This document shows positions 9,907-34,301 of a DNA stretch of 35,851 bases, piece after piece. The notes beneath the pieces are model-generated. The model did no database searches. It had not been told where the DNA came from and saw only the letters and a program-made list of their open reading frames with translations. Position numbers and translations under genes: made by a program. The stretch spans positions 1-35,851 of the forward strand of contig MNWR01000066.1 of NCBI GenBank assembly GCA_001872725.1, in the 5' to 3' direction. Every line of letters begins with the position of its first letter. Position 1 is the stretch's first letter. The DNA is from Proteobacteria bacterium CG1_02_64_396. Lineage in GTDB: Bacteria > Pseudomonadota > MNWR01 > CG1-02-64-396.

Positions 9907-11403
9907 ATGTTCATCCCCTTAAGACTCAAACTGGCCTTTGTGCTTGCCGTCGGTGTGGCGGTAGCGGTGGCCCTGTTTGGCTTGATGGTCGAGAACAAAG
10001 GGCGGGAGATGGTCTATGCCCAAGCCTCGGTGCTGGGCAAAACCTTGGGTACGGTCGCCTCGACCAGCAGCAAAATCCCCATTCTGCGTGGCGACGCCAA
10101 CTCCTTAAAAAAACTGGCCACCGATCTGGTGGTCGAGGGGGGGAGCACCCTGGCTGCGGGGATTCGCACCGTGGGGGGCGAAAACTTAGGCTGGGCGGTC
10201 TCCAATCAATTGGTGCAACTGCGCGATGCGGCTCAGATTGCCGGAATTGCGCTACCCGACGAATGGGTCGGGATGAGCCAGGGTGGGTTCGAGGACAAGC
10301 TCAAGGCGGCCCGCCAGGAGGGGGGCGATCCTGAGTTTTTGGAGCAGGTCGAGCAGTTGAAACAGGCGGTGTTTGAGGCGCTGGTTCCCCAACAATGGCC
10401 CGAACGCACGGTGGAGGTCGCCCACGATGGGGCAATGACCATCATCCGCGCCCCGGTCACCTTCGGCGCCTCCGACAAGGTGATCGGCTGGGTCTGGATC
10501 GCCATGGGGCACCACACCTTGGAGGAGGGGCTCAGCAAGGTGCGCTGGCAGACCATCCTCATCGGCCTGGTTCTGGTCGGCATCATGGCGGCCATCGCCA
10601 TCGCCTTGGGGGGGCAAATCTCTAGCCGCGTCGAGGAGCTCAGCTACGCCACCCAGGCGATTGCTTCGGGCAAACTCGACACCCGCCTCGAACCCCGCAC
10701 CCGGCAGGACGAGGTCGAACACCTGGTGGTCCACTTCAATCAAATGGCCGAGGACATCCAATCGCGAGAACGACTGCGCGAGGCGTTTGGCCGTTTTGTT
10801 CACCCCCACATGGCCGACGAGGTTTCGAAAGGGACCTGGGAGCTGACCCGAAAAGGCAAACGGGTTGACGCCACCATCCTCTTCATCGATCTGGTCGGGT
10901 TCACCTCGATGTCGGAGTCGATCCGCGAAGAGGAGGTGGTCGAGATCCTCAACGCCTTCTTCGACAAGGTGGTCGAGGTGGTTTTCCGCCACGACGGCTC
11001 CATCGACAAATTCATCGGCGACGCCGCCATGGCGGTCTTCGGGGTGCCGGTCCCCGACGAGGATCACCTGCGCCACGGCTGCCACGCGGCACTGGAGCTG
11101 ATCGAGGCGGTTGAAACCCTGAATCTGGGGCGCCGGGTTCAGGTGCGCATCGGGGTCAACAGCGGATCGGTGGTCGAGGGGGCGATGGGGGCGGCCGACC
11201 GGCTCGACTACACCGTGGTTGGCGATGTGGTCAATGTCGCCTCGCGTCTGTGCGACGAGGCGCCGACCGGAGGCATCCTGCTGCCCGAGACCATTCGTCA
11301 GCCCTGGATGACCCAGGGGGCAACCCACGAGCTGGCGCTGCACGGCAAACGCGATCCCCTGCGGGCGATAGAGCTGATCGGGGTTCGCGGAGGGATGGCG
11401 TGA
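9907..11403 (+). CDS. Class III adenylate cyclase, membrane-bound
   Basis: Predicted cAMP-forming cyclase of 498 residues. A transmembrane helix (about 8-28) is followed by an extracytoplasmic sensor of about 185 residues, a second helix (about 216-236), HAMP (about 237-290) and a CHD catalytic domain (about 318-470). Metal-binding aspartates are Asp328 (LFIDLVGF) and Asp372 (KFIGDA). Lys368 and Asp434 (RLDYTVVGD) are the adenine-selecting pair expected for ATP, and Asn443 and Arg447 complete the transition-state site. All essential residues are present. The sensor family is not recognised. AGGA precedes the ATG. Its stop overlaps the GTG of the next lipoprotein gene, which suggests a joint role. 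It breaks the usual rodZ-ispG adjacency. Confidence 0.9.
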   Translation: MFIPLRLKLAFVLAVGVAVAVALFGLMVENKGREMVYAQASVLGKTLGTVASTSSKIPILRGDANSLKKLATDLVVEGGSTLAAGIRTVGGENLGWAVSNQLVQLRDAAQIAGIALPDEWVGMSQGGFEDKLKAARQEGGDPEFLEQVEQLKQAVFEALVPQQWPERTVEVAHDGAMTIIRAPVTFGASDKVIGWVWIAMGHHTLEEGLSKVRWQTILIGLVLVGIMAAIAIALGGQISSRVEELSYATQAIASGKLDTRLEPRTRQDEVEHLVVHFNQMAEDIQSRERLREAFGRFVHPHMADEVSKGTWELTRKGKRVDATILFIDLVGFTSMSESIREEEVVEILNAFFDKVVEVVFRHDGSIDKFIGDAAMAVFGVPVPDEDHLRHGCHAALELIEAVETLNLGRRVQVRIGVNSGSVVEGAMGAADRLDYTVVGDVVNVASRLCDEAPTGGILLPETIRQPWMTQGATHELALHGKRDPLRAIELIGVRGGMA

Positions 11404-26626: not shown

Positions 26627-27226
26627 ATGAGCGTTCTCGTCACCAAGCAGGCTCCCGAGTTCACCGCCAAAGCGGTCATGCCCGACAACAGCATCAACGA
26701 GTCCTTCAAGCTGGCCGACTACAAAGGCAAATATGTTGTCCTATTCTTCTATCCCCTGGATTTCACCTTCGTCTGTCCCTCTGAAATCATCGCCTTTGAC
26801 CACCGCCTGGCCGATTTCAAGAGCCGTGGCGTTGAGGTGATCGGGGTTTCGATCGATTCCCACTTCACCCACCTTGCCTGGAAAAACACCCCAGTGAATA
26901 ACGGTGGTATTGGCAACGTCCAGTACCCCTTGGTTGCCGATCTGACCAAGAACATCGCCCGCGACTACGACGTGCTGATCGGCGACTCTGTGGCGCTGCG
27001 CGGCTCGTTCCTGATCGACAAGGCCGGCGTCGTCCGTCACCAAGTGGTCAACGATCTGCCCCTGGGCCGCAACATCGACGAGATGCTGCGTATGATCGAC
27101 GCTCTGCAATTCACCGAAGAGCACGGCGAGGTTTGCCCTGCCGGTTGGCAGCAAGGCAAAGAGGGTATGAAGGGCAGCACCGAAGGGGTCGCCGAGTACC
27201 TGGCTAAACACGCCAGCGAGCTGTAA
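26627..27226 (+). CDS. Typical 2-Cys peroxiredoxin (AhpC/Prx1)
   Basis: Thiol peroxidase of 199 residues that reduces H2O2, organic peroxides and peroxynitrite. The peroxidatic Cys50 is in FVCPSE and the resolving Cys170 in EVCPAGW, as in the Prx1/AhpC class. GGIG (93-96) resembles the GGLG motif of over-oxidation-sensitive eukaryotic enzymes, but the C-terminal YF motif is missing, so a robust form is likely. AGGAGG lies 8 bases before the ATG. It is a single-gene unit with its own strong promoter and terminator. No AhpF or thioredoxin reductase gene is nearby, so thioredoxin is the likely reductant. Confidence 0.94.
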
Positions 27227-27318: not shown

Positions 27319-27549
27319 ATGGCCATCGATGTTCGTGCTGTTGAAGGGGTGCTGAGCGAAATCCGTCCGCGCTTACAGATGGACGGCGGCGACATCGAAT
27401 TCATCGCGTTGGAAGGTGACGTGGTCAAGGTGCGGCTCAAAGGGGCTTGCGGCACCTGCCCAAGCGCGATGATGACCTTGAAGATGGGGGTTGAACGGGT
27501 GATGAAGCAGCGGATTCCCGAGGTCAGCGAGGTGCGCAACGTTTTTTGA
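27319..27549 (+). CDS. NifU C-terminal-like Fe-S carrier
   Basis: Small Nfu-type protein of 76 residues, a single NifU C-terminal domain. Cys44 and Cys47 (ACGTCPSA) would bind a 4Fe-4S cluster at the interface of a dimer, and RLQMDGGDIEF is the family signature. It lacks the A-type N-terminal domain of NfuA. It likely hands clusters to the many Fe-S enzymes of this organism. GGGGAAA precedes the ATG. Only 24 bases separate it from the peroxiredoxin terminator, so it may depend on read-through or on a promoter within that terminator. Confidence 0.92.
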   Translation: MAIDVRAVEGVLSEIRPRLQMDGGDIEFIALEGDVVKVRLKGACGTCPSAMMTLKMGVERVMKQRIPEVSEVRNVF

Positions 27550-27623
27550 GGCTGCGGATGCTGGAATCGAGTCACGGCTCCGTGATGCTTGGGGTCTAAA
27601 CCCGCGCGTTCCGATAATTTCTT

Positions 27624-27702: not shown

Positions 27703-27716
27703 ACGCGGTTTTCTAA

Positions 27717-27918
27717 GGAAACGCTGATTTAATCGGCGCTTGCGAGCGGCCCACGGATGGACCGCCAAAATCAGGAACGTAAGTAGAAGGCGACCTAAGT
27801 CGCCGAAGCTCTGCTGGTTTTGCAAGCGAAGCAAAAACCATCGCCGCATCAGGGCGACTACGTTTGGTTTTTGCGAAACGTCGCTGAAAAAGGCAGGAGG
27901 TCTTTTTTCAGCGTTTCC
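27717..27918. mobile_element. MITE-like element, IS5-type ends
   Basis: A 202-base non-coding element. The ends are perfect 11-base inverted repeats GGAAACGCTGA (27717-27727) and TCAGCGTTTCC (27908-27918). The four-base flanks are CTAA (27713-27716) and CTAG (27919-27922), both of the YTAR type used as targets by IS5-group elements. The interior holds palindromes: GGCGAC-CTAA-GTCGCC (27789-27804, the same core as the REP at 784-799), a TGGTTTTGC/GCAAAAACCA hairpin (27815-27840) and a GCGAC..CGTTT/AAACGTCGC fold near the right end. No transposase frame is present, so it would move in trans. Confidence 0.6.
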
Positions 27919-27922
27919 CTAG

Positions 27923-28128
27923 CCAATCGAGAGAACGTCTCCTTCCCCCACCAGCTTCGCTTCGCGACCGAGATCGCCTACCACAGCCTCGATGGACGAA
28001 CGGTCCCCACGTAACGTTGCTGGAGCAACCTTCGGTCCGCGAATGAAGAGACAACCCTGCACGACAACAGCGCCTCTCGGCTACACCGAACCCCACCTTC
28101 AATCCACCACCCCAGCCCGATGAATCCC
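27923..28128. other. Non-coding spacer before TatD-rSAM stop
   Basis: No convincing gene. Short open frames on both strands lack ribosome-binding sites and protein-like composition. The only structure seen is a small palindrome GTTGCTGGAGCAAC (28016-28029). No terminator for the minus-strand operon ending at 28129 could be found here. Confidence 0.5.
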
Positions 28129-29508
28129 CTACTGGTCCCCAACCCGATCCATGGGCCTAGCCCTGAAATGGGCCCCCAACGATTCTGCCAAAACCCGACA
28201 CGCCTCGGCATCAACCCCCTCCAACCCATCAATGGCCGAGGCGATCACCTCCTGGAATCCCCCATGGGCCGCCGCCTCTGCGATGAACCGTTTCATCGCC
28301 TCATAGGAGCCCTGCAAACCGGGCCTGCAATGGCGGTTGTAGGTCGCCTCGTCCTGGGCATTGAGGCTGATGCTGATGCGGTCGATGGCCTGGGCCAGCT
28401 CGGGGATGGTGTTGCGCTTGTGCACCAGGTTGCTTAAACCGTCGGTATTTAGGCGGGTTTTCCCGCCATGTTCTTTAATCCAGTGAGCAACGCTGAGCAC
28501 CACCGGCAAACGCAGGGTCGGCTCGCCGTAGCCGCAAAAGACGATCTCATCAAAGCGAGTCGGATCGCCGATCGCCTCGATCAACTGACCTGGGCTCGGC
28601 TGCACTTTGGCCAGCTTGAGGTAATGCCCCTTCACCATGAAGTCGTCGAACTTGGGGCAAAAGGCGCATTGCAGGGTGCAGTGGTTGGTGACGTTGAGGT
28701 AGAGGCTGTTGCGGATCGTGTAGGCGATCTCCCCCTCTGGGGATTCCTGGTCGATGCGAAACAGCCGCCGCCCGTTCTCGCGGGTAATACGCACGACGTC
28801 TTCCAGGCTATCACCCCGTAATTCGGCAAGTTTTTCGAGGGTGGCGATCATCTGGGCCGGTTCGTTGCGTTTGCCCCGCCAGCGCTGCGGGCTCAGGTAG
28901 GGGGCGTCGGTTTCGACCAGCAGGTGGGTGTCGGGCACCCAGGTGGCCGCCTCTTGAATGTCCAACGCCTTCTTATAGGTGACGTTGCCCGAAAAGCAGA
29001 CCAGCAGCCCCAATTCGACCACCCGCTGTGCCTGCGCCCGATCACTTGAAAAGCAGTGCATCACCCCTCGCAACCGCCCCTGCCCCTCCTCTTTCAGGAT
29101 CGCGTAGGTGTCTTCATCAGCGTCGCGACTGTGCACAATGACGGGTAAATCTGCTTCAAGACATGCCCGTATATGATTGCGAAAGCTAGCCTTCTGAGCT
29201 TCGATGTGGGTGAGGTCGTGGTAGTAATCCAAACCGGTCTCCCCCAACGCCACCACCTTGGGATGGGAGGCCCAGCCCAGGATCTCTTCGACGCTGGGTG
29301 GAGTTTGGACGTCGCAAGGGTGCAGTCCCATGGCGACAAAAAACCGGTCGCTCAAGGCCGCTGCCTGGAACACCCGCTCAAAATAGGGGGGTTCGACGGC
29401 GGGGATCAGCACAAAATCGCAGGCGTCGAGGGTGCGCTCAAGAATCTGGGGCCAGTCTTCTTGCCCCATCAGGTAATCGAGGTGGGCATGGGTATCAAAG
29501 GGTTTCAC
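28129..29508 (-). CDS. TatD nuclease-radical SAM fusion protein
   Basis: A 459-residue fusion. Residues 1-255 are a TatD-type metal-dependent hydrolase: HAH (His7, His9), Glu90 (GETGLDYY), His126 (VIVHSRD), His151 (MHCFS) and Asp201 (ETDAPYL) form the complete two-metal site. Residues about 265-459 are a radical-SAM domain with CTLQCAFC (Cys277, Cys281, Cys284), a GYGEPTLR SAM-binding motif and SISLNAQD. The radical-SAM half resembles the family found linked to TatD in some other bacteria; its substrate is unknown. The start is set at GTG 29508, 10 bases after the PilZ stop, giving the TatD-like start KPFDTHAHLD; an ATG at 29565 would overlap PilZ by 47 bases. It is the last gene of the minus-strand operon. 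Confidence 0.85.
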   Translation of the reverse strand: MKPFDTHAHLDYLMGQEDWPQILERTLDACDFVLIPAVEPPYFERVFQAAALSDRFFVAMGLHPCDVQTPPSVEEILGWASHPKVVALGETGLDYYHDLTHIEAQKASFRNHIRACLEADLPVIVHSRDADEDTYAILKEEGQGRLRGVMHCFSSDRAQAQRVVELGLLVCFSGNVTYKKALDIQEAATWVPDTHLLVETDAPYLSPQRWRGKRNEPAQMIATLEKLAELRGDSLEDVVRITRENGRRLFRIDQESPEGEIAYTIRNSLYLNVTNHCTLQCAFCPKFDDFMVKGHYLKLAKVQPSPGQLIEAIGDPTRFDEIVFCGYGEPTLRLPVVLSVAHWIKEHGGKTRLNTDGLSNLVHKRNTIPELAQAIDRISISLNAQDEATYNRHCRPGLQGSYEAMKRFIAEAAAHGGFQEVIASAIDGLEGVDAEACRVLAESLGAHFRARPMDRVGDQ

Positions 29509-29518
29509 TGCGGGCAAC

Positions 29519-29884
29519 TCATAAGGGGCGGAAGGCCGGTCCTTCGGTGTGGAGCTTGGCCACATCGCGAACCCAACGGCGGATCTCGTCGCGCTGTTCG
29601 TCCGAGGTATGGCGGAATTGAATACCCATCCCCTGCATCAGGGGACGGGTATTTTCAAAGGGGTTGGCGTAAACCACCTTGCCATCGATCTCGATCACAT
29701 GCTCGTCGGGCAGGTGCAGTACCAGGGTCACCTCGGTCCCGACCGGGAGCGCCTCTTTGGTACGGACAAAGATCCCGCCACCACTGATGTTGTCGGTGTA
29801 CCCCTCGTAAACCGCATCAGCGGTGTGGTACTGCACGTTGACCCGGATGGGTGATCGGGATTCGGTGCGGCGCTCCTGGCTCAT
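29519..29884 (-). CDS. PilZ domain c-di-GMP-binding protein
   Basis: Single-domain PilZ protein of 121 residues. The c-di-GMP-binding motifs are both present: RRTESR (5-10, RxxxR) and DNISGGG (31-37, [D/N]xSxxG). The beta-barrel part follows (IDGKVVYANP, GMGIQFR). It lies between metG and the TatD-radical SAM gene with gaps of 22 and 10 bases, so all three are probably on one mRNA. It is a candidate receptor for signals such as that from the diguanylate cyclase at 3544-5586, but its target is unknown. Confidence 0.9.
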   Translation of the reverse strand: MSQERRTESRSPIRVNVQYHTADAVYEGYTDNISGGGIFVRTKEALPVGTEVTLVLHLPDEHVIEIDGKVVYANPFENTRPLMQGMGIQFRHTSDEQRDEIRRWVRDVAKLHTEGPAFRPL

Positions 29885-29906: not shown

Positions 29907-31460
29907 TCAGCCCAGGCGGGGAAACACCCCCACCGGTTTGTCCAACGTCTTGCCTTGGCTCAACCGGGGCTCGCCGACCAGCAGGTCGAGCCCGGCACAA
30001 GACCCACGCCGGGTATCGGGGATCTCCTCCCCCATCTGCTGCAAGATCTTCCCCGCCATGGTCGGCATGAAGGGGAGCAACAGTATCGCCACCCCGCGGA
30101 TGGTTTCCATCGCGCTGAGCAGCACCCCGGCCAGACGACCACGCTGATCGGCTTGTTTGGCCAGGGCCCAGGGGGCGGTGGCGTCGATGAAGCGGTTGGC
30201 CTCCCCCACCACCTGCCAAATGGCACCGAGCGCCTTGTGGAAGGCCTGAACCTCGATCTGTGCTCGGACCTCGTCGCGGCTGCGCAGCAGCGTGGCCAGC
30301 AGCGCCGCCTCGTCGTTTTCCATCGCCTGGCTGCGGCTTGGAATCCCCCCGAATTGCTTCACCGCCATGCTCAGAACCCGCTGCGCCAAATTGCCAAGAT
30401 CGTTGGCGAGCTCGGTGGTGTAGCGCATATCGAGCGAGGCTTGGGAGTAGTCGCCGTCGCCCCCGAAGGGGACATCGCGCAGCATGAAATACCGAATCAC
30501 GTCGGGGGGATACTTGGCCAGCAAATCGTCGGGGCGGACCACGTTCCCCTTGGATTTCGACATCTTTTCACCCTCGACCGTCCACCAGCCGTGGGCGTAG
30601 AGCCGTTTGGGCAAAGGCAGATCGGCCGCCATCAGCATGGCGGGCCAGTAGATGGCGTGAAAACGCAGGATGTCCTTACCGATCAGGTGCAGGCTGGGGG
30701 GCCAGAACCGGCCCATCGACCCCTCTTGATCGGGATAACCCAAGGCGCTCAAGTAGTTGGTCAGGGCGTCGATCCAAACGTAAATCAGATGTTTGTCGTC
30801 GCCGGGGACCGGAATCCCCCAGGTGAAACCGGTACGCGACACCGACAGATCGCGCAGCCCCTCTTCATTTTTAAGAAAGGCAAGCACCTCGTTGCGACGG
30901 CTTTCGGGGCCAATGAACTCGGGGTGGGACTCGATATGGTCGATCAAAGGTTGGGTGTAGCGCGACAGAGCAAAGAAGTAGGACTCCTCGGCCAGCCGCT
31001 CGACCGGACGGGCGCAATCGGGGCACAGACCGTTGCGAATCTGGGTTTCGGTCCAGAACGACTCGCAAGGGGTGCAGTACCAGTCCTCGTAGCTCCCCTT
31101 ATAGAGGGTCCCCGACGCGGTCAGCCGCTGAAATATCGCCTTGACCGCCTCTTTGTGCCCCGGCTCGGTGGTGCGGATGAAGCGGTCGAAACTGATCTCG
31201 AAGCGTTCCCATAAGCTGGCGTATTCGGCCACCACCTCGTCGGCCAGGGCAATGGGGGCAATGCCGCGCGCCTCGGCGGAGCGCTCCACCTTCTGACCGT
31301 GCTCGTCGCTCCCGGTCAAAAAGAAGACCTCTTTGCCGTCGAGACGGTTGAAACGGGCCATTACATCGGCGGCAACCGTGGTGTAGACGTGGCCGATGTG
31401 GGGGCGGTCGTTGACGTAGTAGATCGGGGTGGTGACGAAGAAGGTCTGGAGCTGGCTCAT
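29907..31460 (-). CDS. metG: Methionyl-tRNA synthetase
   Basis: Class I synthetase of 517 residues that charges initiator and elongator tRNA-Met. Signature HIGH is at 21-24 and KMSKS at 299-303. A zinc-binding connective peptide carries Cys129, Cys132, Cys146 and Cys149. The protein lacks the C-terminal EMAP/Arc1p-like dimerisation domain of E. coli MetG and has the short form found in many alphaproteobacteria and thermophiles. It lies 63 bases after the ricT-like gene and 22 bases before pilZ, inside the minus-strand operon. Confidence 0.95.
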   Translation of the reverse strand: MSQLQTFFVTTPIYYVNDRPHIGHVYTTVAADVMARFNRLDGKEVFFLTGSDEHGQKVERSAEARGIAPIALADEVVAEYASLWERFEISFDRFIRTTEPGHKEAVKAIFQRLTASGTLYKGSYEDWYCTPCESFWTETQIRNGLCPDCARPVERLAEESYFFALSRYTQPLIDHIESHPEFIGPESRRNEVLAFLKNEEGLRDLSVSRTGFTWGIPVPGDDKHLIYVWIDALTNYLSALGYPDQEGSMGRFWPPSLHLIGKDILRFHAIYWPAMLMAADLPLPKRLYAHGWWTVEGEKMSKSKGNVVRPDDLLAKYPPDVIRYFMLRDVPFGGDGDYSQASLDMRYTTELANDLGNLAQRVLSMAVKQFGGIPSRSQAMENDEAALLATLLRSRDEVRAQIEVQAFHKALGAIWQVVGEANRFIDATAPWALAKQADQRGRLAGVLLSAMETIRGVAILLLPFMPTMAGKILQQMGEEIPDTRRGSCAGLDLLVGEPRLSQGKTLDKPVGVFPRLG

Positions 31461-31523: not shown

Positions 31524-32690
31524 TTACGAAGCGGGGGCCGATCCACCCTCGCCCCCCCCGCTGCGCCCGCGCCGCCGGGAACGCCTGCGTCGGCCACCCC
31601 GATTGGACCGCTCCTCCCCCTCCCCTTGTTGGGGGGGGGGCTGGGGGGAAGTCTCTTGTTGGGACGGCACTGTGGCAGCAGCGCGTTGCCGTTGCTCCTG
31701 GGGGCGCCCCCGGCCCCTGGGGGGGCGGGATTGAACTGCCCGTTCCGTCCGCTCTTCGGGGCGTGGTTCGGCGACGGGGGTGGGAGGGGGACTCGGTTCT
31801 GGATCGACACATTCGGCCACCGGTGTGGCGACCGGTGTGCGTGCGGCAGGCGGATCCTGGCTGGGTGCCGCACGACGTTCCCCACCACTACCCTCCAATT
31901 CGTCCACCGAAACCTTGAGGTTTTCACCCGGCTTAATTTGTAGGGTAACCGCCCGGTCCAGGGGGTGTTGAAACACCACCCGACCGCATTGGCCGCTCTT
32001 GGTGCAGCAGTGGGTCCCCTGCCGAGGTAGGGAGCGGTTGAGCTCGCGGTAGGCCTCATCCTCGAACGACAGGCAACACATCAGCCGTCCACACACACCC
32101 GAGATTTGGTCGGGATTGAGGGACAAATGCTGGTTTTTCGCCATCTTGAGTGAAACGGGGTCCATGTTTCCGCCCAGCTTCGAGGCGCAGCACAGTTCTG
32201 CGCCACAGGGGCCGAGACCACCAATCTCTCCGGCCAGGTCGCGTACCCCGATCTGACGCAGGTTGATGCGCAGGTGAAGTTTCGCGGCCAGGGCCCGCAC
32301 CAGGGCGCGGAAGTCGACCCGATGGGGGGCGGCGAAGGTGATGTTCATGACCCGCCCCTCATCGTCGAGGAGCGCTTCGGAGAACTTCATCGGTAGGTTG
32401 AGCAGCCGTGCCTGTTCTCGTCCGATGGTCAGCGCTTGGCGCTCCTGCTCCTTGCGCTTTTCGAGTTTGTTAAGCTCGTCGTCGGCAATGGGGCGGATCA
32501 AGGTGTCGATCACCCCGAAGAAGGGTTCGTCGCGCTCGACATGGGTGGTGACAACCCGGGCCAGCTCTTCGCGCCCCAGGCGCAGACGCACCAAGACGGT
32601 GCTCCCGACCTCGGTGGCAAACTCAGGCGTGGGGACGAAAAAAACATTCGCGCTGGAGGGGAGCTTAAGTCCGATAAGCCTTTCGGCCAT
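31524..32690 (-). CDS. ricT: PSP1/RicT-like protein, disordered tail
   Basis: PSP1-domain protein of 388 residues. The conserved core (1-265) has the family cysteines GPCGAELCC (Cys162, Cys167, Cys168) and GVCGRLMCC (Cys200, Cys205, Cys206), plus CC at 228-229 and Cys235. In Bacillus, RicT (YaaT) joins RicA and RicF in an Fe-S complex that works with RNase Y. Residues about 266-388 form a Pro/Gln/Glu-rich, then Arg/Gly-rich tail (GGRRRRSRRRGRSGGG) that looks disordered and RNA-binding. The ATG at 32690 overlaps holB by 26 bases; a frame reaching 32816 is only an extension. The RNA-processing role is inferred from distant homologues. Confidence 0.82.
   Translation of the reverse strand: MAERLIGLKLPSSANVFFVPTPEFATEVGSTVLVRLRLGREELARVVTTHVERDEPFFGVIDTLIRPIADDELNKLEKRKEQERQALTIGREQARLLNLPMKFSEALLDDEGRVMNITFAAPHRVDFRALVRALAAKLHLRINLRQIGVRDLAGEIGGLGPCGAELCCASKLGGNMDPVSLKMAKNQHLSLNPDQISGVCGRLMCCLSFEDEAYRELNRSLPRQGTHCCTKSGQCGRVVFQHPLDRAVTLQIKPGENLKVSVDELEGSGGERRAAPSQDPPAARTPVATPVAECVDPEPSPPPTPVAEPRPEERTERAVQSRPPRGRGRPQEQRQRAAATVPSQQETSPQPPPQQGEGEERSNRGGRRRRSRRRGRSGGGEGGSAPAS
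31616..31650. repeat. In-frame G-rich palindromic repeat in ricT
   Basis: CCCC (31622-31625, after CCCCT), TTGTT, then a run of G, CT and GGGGGG. It encodes the PQPPPQQGEGEE part of the tail. The complement of the rodZ repeat (9305-9340) has the same order: C-run, T, C-run, TG-TTG, G-run, GG-T, G-run. Confidence 0.4.
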
Positions 32691-33672
32691 GAACCAGTAC
32701 CCTTTGCAGGTCAATAAGAAGCCCTTCGGTGGCGAGCAGTGGATTGACCATCCGCTCAAGATCCTCTTCCCAAAGGGTGATCCGCTCCTCGGCTTGCAGC
32801 AATCGCTGCGGTTCAACCGCCCCCGGTAGGGGGGTTAAACCAAAACCCGACCCCCCATCTTGCGGGATCATGGCGTCGAAGAATTGGCGCAGCCAGGCGC
32901 GGATCAAAATGCCGATCGCTTCGAAGTCGTCCATAGAGACCCACCGTTGGGCCATTTCGAGAAGCGAGGCGGGTTCGCAGCGGGCAAGGATAGCGGCATC
33001 CTCCCCAAACCGCTCCATGATTTTCAGCCGCTTTTCCTCCAACCACCCCCGAGCAACCCCCGGCGCTCCACCCCCGATGACGGCGGCGCGAGCCAGGCTC
33101 GTCTCGGGCAAATCGGGATACTTTTGGCTGAGCCAGACCAGCAGATCGGGTTGCGCCACCGGGTGTAGATGCATCTTGACGCAGCGCGACAGGATCGTGG
33201 GCAGGACCCGGGCGGTGGAGACTCCGAGCAAGATCAGATGGGCCCCCGGCGCAGGTTCCTCCAGCGTTTTGAGCAGTGCATTGGCCGAAAAGCGGTTGAG
33301 CCGGTCGGCGCCATCGAGAATCAGAAGTCGCCGTTTGGCGGCCAGCGGGGTTAAACCGAGCCAGGCGTTGGCCTGACGGACCGCATCAATGGGGATCTCC
33401 CGCTTTTTGCCCACCGGCTCAATCCCCATCAGATCGGGATGACCGACGGTGGGATCCTCAATCTGCCGACAGGCGGGACAGGCGCCGCAGGCCACCCCTC
33501 GCTTGGGGGTCGCGCAGAGCAGCGCCTGGGCAAGCCCCCGGGCCAGCAGCCCCTTGCCGACTCCGGGGGGGCCGAGCAGCAGCAGGGCGTGGGGGAATTT
33601 GCCGTCGTGCAGCCTGTGCTCCAGCCGCTGCCGTACCTCGTGGTGGCCAATCAGGGTATCGAGCAGCGTCAC
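32665..33672 (-). CDS. holB: DNA polymerase III subunit delta'
   Basis: Clamp-loader subunit of 335 residues. The AAA+ domain has Walker A GPPGVGKG (34-41), and a zinc-type cysteine set at Cys53, Cys62, Cys65 and Cys68. Sensor and Arg-finger region: KTLEEPAPGAHLILL and ILSRC. The C-terminal collar domain follows. The start is GTG 33672, which overlaps the tmk TGA as GTGA and has GGAGG a few bases upstream; a longer frame to 34029 only shadows tmk. The order tmk-holB is common in bacteria. Confidence 0.93.
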   Translation of the reverse strand: MTLLDTLIGHHEVRQRLEHRLHDGKFPHALLLLGPPGVGKGLLARGLAQALLCATPKRGVACGACPACRQIEDPTVGHPDLMGIEPVGKKREIPIDAVRQANAWLGLTPLAAKRRLLILDGADRLNRFSANALLKTLEEPAPGAHLILLGVSTARVLPTILSRCVKMHLHPVAQPDLLVWLSQKYPDLPETSLARAAVIGGGAPGVARGWLEEKRLKIMERFGEDAAILARCEPASLLEMAQRWVSMDDFEAIGILIRAWLRQFFDAMIPQDGGSGFGLTPLPGAVEPQRLLQAEERITLWEEDLERMVNPLLATEGLLIDLQRVLVHGRKAYRT

Positions 33673-34301
33673 CCTCCCCTCCCCGGCGTGGTTGTCAGGG
33701 CGGCGATCAACCCCCGCGCCTGGGTCTGAATCGCCTCGATGGATTGGCTGGCGTCGATGCGGCGAATACGCTGCGGCTCGCCCCACATCCGCTCTAAAAA
33801 CGCGGCGCGGATGCGACGATGAAAGCGGGTCGATTCGGCGTCGAAACGGTTGTTGTCGCTGCGTTTTCCGGCCCGTGCCAAACCAAGGGTGACCGGCAGA
33901 TCGAACCACAGGGTCAGATCGGGGGGACGGCGCGCGGTGCTCCAGCTGGCCACGGCGTCGACCTCGCGCAGATCGAGCCGTCGTCCCCAACCTTGGTAGG
34001 CATAGGTGGAATCGACGTAGCGGTCGCACAGCACCACGGCACCGCGCTCCAGCGCCGGAAGAATAATCTGGTCGAGGTGGTCCTGACGGCCGGCGGCAAC
34101 CAGAGCCAACTCGGTGCGCGGCTGCATGGAGTGGGCGAACAGCAGTCCCCGAATCGCCTCGCCCAGCGCCGAGCCACCGGGTTCCCGGGTGACGACGACC
34201 TCGCGACCCTGGGCGCGCAGGTGCTCGGCCAGCAGCCGGATTTGGGTCGACTTACCCGCCCCTTCGCCCCCTTCCAGGGTGATGAACCAACCGTGTTTCA
34301 A
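33669..34301 (-). CDS. tmk: Thymidylate kinase
   Basis: Phosphorylates dTMP to dTDP. The protein has 210 residues, the standard length. P-loop GGEGAGKST is at 11-19, followed by TREPGGSALGE and DRYVDSTYAYQG (the DRY base motif), and a lid with RSDNNRF. The start is a TTG at 34301: TTGA overlaps the mltG stop, and GGAG lies 8 bases upstream. No ATG or GTG gives a complete N-terminus. Translation therefore likely depends on coupling to mltG. Confidence 0.94.
   Translation of the reverse strand: MKHGWFITLEGGEGAGKSTQIRLLAEHLRAQGREVVVTREPGGSALGEAIRGLLFAHSMQPRTELALVAAGRQDHLDQIILPALERGAVVLCDRYVDSTYAYQGWGRRLDLREVDAVASWSTARRPPDLTLWFDLPVTLGLARAGKRSDNNRFDAESTRFHRRIRAAFLERMWGEPQRIRRIDASQSIEAIQTQARGLIAALTTTPGRGG

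Follow-up and report, generated by a model that had tools for sequence, protein, structure and literature searches.

The window analysed here, a stretch of 35,851 nucleotides from contig MNWR01000066.1 of Proteobacteria bacterium CG1_02_64_396, encodes a protein in which a TatD hydrolase is fused to a minimal radical-SAM domain. The ancient tmk-holB-ricT-metG-tatD cluster has a TatD of the YcfH/YabD type; the fusion is this TatD with a TIGR04038 domain added at its C terminus, and by its profile match it is a member of a catalogued, biochemically uncharacterised family. We believe, with slightly better than an even chance of being right, that it is a two-site enzyme of nucleic-acid end processing or repair. 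The PilZ gene that precedes it is probably an incidental operon neighbour.

The fusion gene and its active sites

Domain matches, 81 fused homologues and an AlphaFold model place the fusion gene at 28129..29508 on the minus strand. The open reading frame as called (28129-29565, minus strand) is 478 aa long, and its numbering is used for all residues below. Its in-frame ATG at 29565 overlaps pilZ, and translation most likely begins with the GTG at 29508. With the stop codon of pilZ at 29519-29521, the two genes are separated by the 10 bases that the first-pass annotation had described.

The group II (HxH) TatD domain (PF01026/TIGR00010) spans 28756..29499 on the minus strand, as judged from profile matches, conservation and Foldseek. 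Pfam TatD_DNase PF01026 matched residues 23-270 with 230.8 bits, and the NCBIfam model TIGR00010 also passed its cut-off (229.8 bits; cut-off 206). The minimal radical-SAM domain TIGR04038 (28150..28731, minus strand) was delimited by its profile match, its conservation and its predicted fold. Pfam Radical_SAM matched residues 291-454, and TIGR04038 matched residues 279-472 (254.1 bits; cut-off 129.7), covering positions 1-191 of the 192 in the model. Neither an extra cysteine cluster nor a SPASM/twitch domain was found in this half of about 200 aa, in agreement with the earlier description of a short radical-SAM part lacking an auxiliary cluster. That description had also put the system forward as the best candidate here for an undescribed one, a claim that falls with the match to TIGR04038, a curated family named for its association with TatD.

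Both active sites are complete within the one chain, as had been proposed. The metal ligands of the TatD half are H26, H28, E109, H145, H170 and D220. The radical-SAM cysteines C296, C300 and C303 form a CX3CX2C motif, and a GE motif follows at 347-348. The three cysteines, the GE motif, E109, H145, H170 and D220 are invariant in 81/81 fusions, and both histidines of the HxH motif are present in 79 of them. Loss of either site in most homologues had been named beforehand as a refutation; what we found is a set of fusions that keep both. The HxH motif together with the E, H, H and D ligands fits the group II TatD DNases, and the HxH motif places the TatD half in that group with E. coli YcfH and YjjV, following the published definition (PMC10085689).

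An AlphaFold2 prediction with 61 homologues as input gave two confident barrels for the fusion (mean pLDDT 94.7, pTM 0.84) and similarly for the radical-SAM half (pLDDT 94.2, pTM 0.90). The best Foldseek matches of the TatD half were S. aureus TatD (6L25) and E. coli YcfH (1YIX), at 37-39% identity and TMt 0.90-0.93. The closest folds of the radical-SAM half were PFL-activating enzyme, NifB, TYW1, RlmN and viperin, with TMq 0.70-0.73 and 16% identity to PFL-activating enzyme and NifB. Searched by sequence against the PDB, the radical-SAM half alone gave nothing meaningful, and a profile built from 50 sequences retrieved only general radical-SAM relatives, RlmN and MoaA among them.

A fused gene in a single genome might be an assembly or frameshift artefact, the more so as a second TatD of the same genome is split across two frames. 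This second copy (contig C79:9684-10429) breaks at about 9911-9917 through a frameshift, a pseudogene or an assembly error. The fusion itself recurs as 81 fused homologues, each in a genome of its own, in which the order of the domains is kept and the sites are intact; this excludes chance or artefact for all practical purposes.

Distribution and operon context

The survey comprised 81 distinct fused genes and 14 sampled genomes in which a TIGR04038 radical-SAM gene stands alone, with no TatD gene directly adjacent. Fused relatives occur in Magnetococcia-like bacteria, Geobacteraceae and Myxococcota, among others. TIGR04038 scored above its cut-off in 44/299 sampled genomes of the window's own phylum, where most of the carriers seem to form one class, which we read as Magnetococcia; the window genome was the sole sampled member of its class. 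The family was likewise above cut-off in 36 of the 198 sampled genomes from the phylum of the Geobacter match and in 42 of 193 from the phylum that the tree tool labelled Myxococcota. A scan of named genomes with the single fusion protein returned two relatives only. In a TatD tree the window sequence sits on a long branch (1.62), and its exact sister group is unsure.

The standalone copies argue that a linked TatD is no prerequisite for the radical-SAM chemistry. Their neighbours form a regulatory context that indicates no substrate. Among the standalone loci of the Myxococcota-type phylum (L188-L203), a gene of about 480-510 aa often lies downstream, and in the three of these loci that were scanned (L189, L196 and L203) it encodes a sigma-54 response regulator; at L190 and L203 a gene for a DksA/TraR zinc finger comes before it. 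L192, the one locus scanned for a protoglobin histidine kinase, has one in the vicinity.

In the window, the fusion closes a housekeeping operon on the minus strand, whose genes were assigned from open reading frames and homologue labelling. These are tmk (thymidylate kinase, 33669..34298), holB (DNA polymerase III delta', 32665..33672), a ricT/PSP1-type gene (31524..32690), the starts of all three being approximate, and metG (methionyl-tRNA synthetase, 29907..31460). Across the survey the cluster reads tmk-holB-ricT-(metG)-tatD::rSAM, and the fusion follows holB, ricT or metG in 59/81 loci. The order is tmk-holB-ricT-metG-tatD::rSAM in the phylum of Geobacter, tmk-holB-ricT-tatD::rSAM in Magnetococcia-like genomes and tmk-holB-ricT-metG-pilZ-tatD::rSAM in the window. 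The window order combines features found separately in other genomes. TatD relatives that lack the radical-SAM half are found in the orders tmk-holB-metG-tatD (L085, L087 and L089), tmk-holB-tatD (L086 and L088) and, in other Pseudomonadota, tmk-holB-pilZ-tatD (L080, L081 and L082). The same order is known from B. subtilis, where the genes are holB, yaaT, metS and yabD, and Pseudomonas carries holB-pilZ-tatD.

Three Magnetococcia-like genomes (L054, L074 and L079) carry the fusion away from the holB cluster; there it follows genes for a PLP-dependent synthase (PALP) and for a putative nucleotidyltransferase. In the window, a small gene for a NifU-type (CxxC) iron-sulfur scaffold, recognised by eye only, lies convergent with the fusion at 27320-27550 on the plus strand, just after a peroxiredoxin gene at 26627-27226. 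Positions 27708-27925 hold an interspersed repeat, about 210 bp long, whose terminal inverted repeats (GGAAACGCTGA ... TCAGCGTTTCC) are imperfect. It has 46 matches in the window genome, most of them at 77-90% identity, which points to a MITE-like family.

The PilZ neighbour

The gene directly upstream of the fusion (29519..29884, minus strand) encodes a PilZ protein with RxxxR and NxSxxG motifs (PF07238, 75 bits). Both c-di-GMP motifs reported by the first-pass annotation were confirmed, as R6TESR10 and N32ISGGG37. That annotation had gone further and suggested a new link between PilZ, TatD-radical SAM and c-di-GMP. In such a system PilZ would bind and regulate the fusion enzyme, and this could be read from the pair of motifs and from the position of pilZ on the same strand, 10 bp upstream of the fusion. 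Furthermore, this is the only PF07238 match in a genome with 36 GGDEF matches. We nevertheless consider regulation by PilZ very improbable, since the pair occurs in 1/81 fusion loci, since elsewhere in this operon PilZ adjoins a TatD that has no radical-SAM half, and since the protein resembles the pilus PilZ in a genome where pilus ATPase genes are present.

The neighbourhood survey found the adjacency in the window genome and in no second lineage, the very outcome that had been named at the outset as refuting the link. None of the other 58 cluster loci has a PilZ gene, and 51 of them have no room for one, as the stretch from the upstream gene to the first histidine of TatD is 280 bp at most. 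Seven loci remain. From our reading of the sequences, the genes found in the gap there encode HEAT-repeat-like proteins (L035, L191, L202 and L205) or lipoprotein-like proteins (L152 and L155); the gap at L129 holds an open reading frame of 75 aa with no Pfam match. The 22 fusion loci outside the cluster gave no PilZ gene in a profile and motif scan, in which a very divergent PilZ could escape a profile built from four sequences.

The only matches of the window PilZ among PDB sequences were to the type IV pilus PilZ of Xanthomonas (3CNR, 7LKQ and 3DSG; E 3.5e-8), and PilB was found in the window genome above cut-off, with 765 bits. The window PilZ is 24-26% identical to the PilZ proteins that occupy the slot before tatD at L080-L082. 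Its sequence suggests a relative of the type IV pilus PilZ that probably binds c-di-GMP; this is the simplest reading, and orthology is not proven. Given the single adjacency in 81 loci, the pilus-like PilZ of tmk-holB-pilZ-tatD operons and the PDB matches of the window PilZ, the c-di-GMP link is best read as a matter of operon position together with a pilus-type PilZ. The PilZ neighbour was probably a misleading lead, a relic of operon history and not a new c-di-GMP output.

Proposed function and relation to known systems

Three TatD proteins of E. coli, namely TatD, YcfH and YjjV, act as 3'-exonucleases and AP endonucleases (PMC10085689), and loss of TatD leads to sensitivity to H2O2 (PMC4176340). 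Nuclease or AP-endonuclease activity of the TatD half would follow from homology. The TatD barrel, with two metals, would hydrolyse 3'-terminal nucleotides or the phosphodiesters of AP sites. The PFL-activase-like barrel would convert SAM to a 5'-deoxyadenosyl radical on a [4Fe-4S] cluster held by CX3CX2C, and the substrate from which this radical may abstract hydrogen would belong to the same pathway, with a damaged or modified nucleic-acid end or the released nucleotide as candidates. The two sites might be coupled in that one prepares or finishes what the other cuts. We infer both the radical-SAM substrate and the coupling. The nucleic-acid role suggested at first is therefore reasonable as far as the TatD half goes, which is closest to S. 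aureus TatD and YcfH; its coupling to c-di-GMP is not upheld.

Some observations speak against a role in nucleic-acid processing: the radical-SAM domain occurs by itself in the 14 genomes described above, the sigma-54 regulator, DksA-type zinc finger and protoglobin kinase beside such copies do not point to DNA repair, and no DNA- or nucleotide-binding feature came to light in the radical-SAM half. The same standalone copies favour another explanation, namely that the radical-SAM half works as a tailoring or activating enzyme in its own right, joined to TatD for co-expression or because TatD is a metallo-hydrolase of the same small molecule rather than of DNA. The substrate would then be a protein, a tRNA or a small molecule, as in the PFL-activase, RlmN and viperin folds. 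This would suit the profile matches to RlmN and MoaA as well as the presence in the operon of metG and ricT, which are concerned with translation and RNA. However, no glycyl-radical enzyme or similar partner lies beside the fusion in the loci read, and neither its sequence nor its fold sets the TatD half apart from an ordinary group II DNase. We regard this tailoring explanation as a serious contender that falls clearly short of probable.

The idea of a two-site end-processing or repair enzyme can be narrowed to repair of DNA (or RNA), in which the radical would attack an abasic sugar or a 3' end that is damaged, for the linked TatD to remove. We offer this as a speculation that is unlikely to be correct in full. 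In the window lineage the cell's only PilZ could give such a repair fusion a further level of control. If the repair reading is true, we know of no earlier case in which a radical-SAM enzyme works together with a nuclease in an operon linked to replication. A role in defence was also considered and rejected, as PADLOC gave weak QatD and viperin matches only.

In the literature that we searched, nothing of relevance turned up on a fusion of TatD with radical SAM or on TatD-PilZ-holB, and no paper names TIGR04038; we know of no experiment on any protein of this family. TIGR04038 is a named but apparently unstudied family. With its sites kept in 81 fusions and its place in a replication and translation operon, it is a good target in the search for a nucleic-acid role of radical-SAM chemistry.

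Compared with known systems, the fusion is closest to TIGR04038 itself, which its radical-SAM half matches over the full length at twice the cut-off and whose name implies the fusion to TatD. No tested feature of domain structure sets it apart from this family, and the one unusual point is its PilZ neighbour. E. coli YcfH and S. aureus TatD share with it the HxH group, the metal ligands and the position by holB, but they are proteins of about 255-265 aa that lack a radical-SAM half. PFL-activating enzyme and NifB (3C8F and 7BI7) resemble the radical-SAM half in their CX3CX2C motif and compact barrel of about 200 aa, whereas the window enzyme is fused to a hydrolase and has no visible glycyl-radical partner. 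The window PilZ has its sole PDB sequence matches in the type IV pilus PilZ (3CNR and 7LKQ), and its gene occupies the same slot before tatD as the pilZ of tmk-holB-pilZ-tatD operons. In contrast to those operons, the window has ricT and metG between holB and pilZ, and its PilZ has both the RxxxR and the [DN]xSxxG motif that the PilZ proteins of L080-L082 lack.
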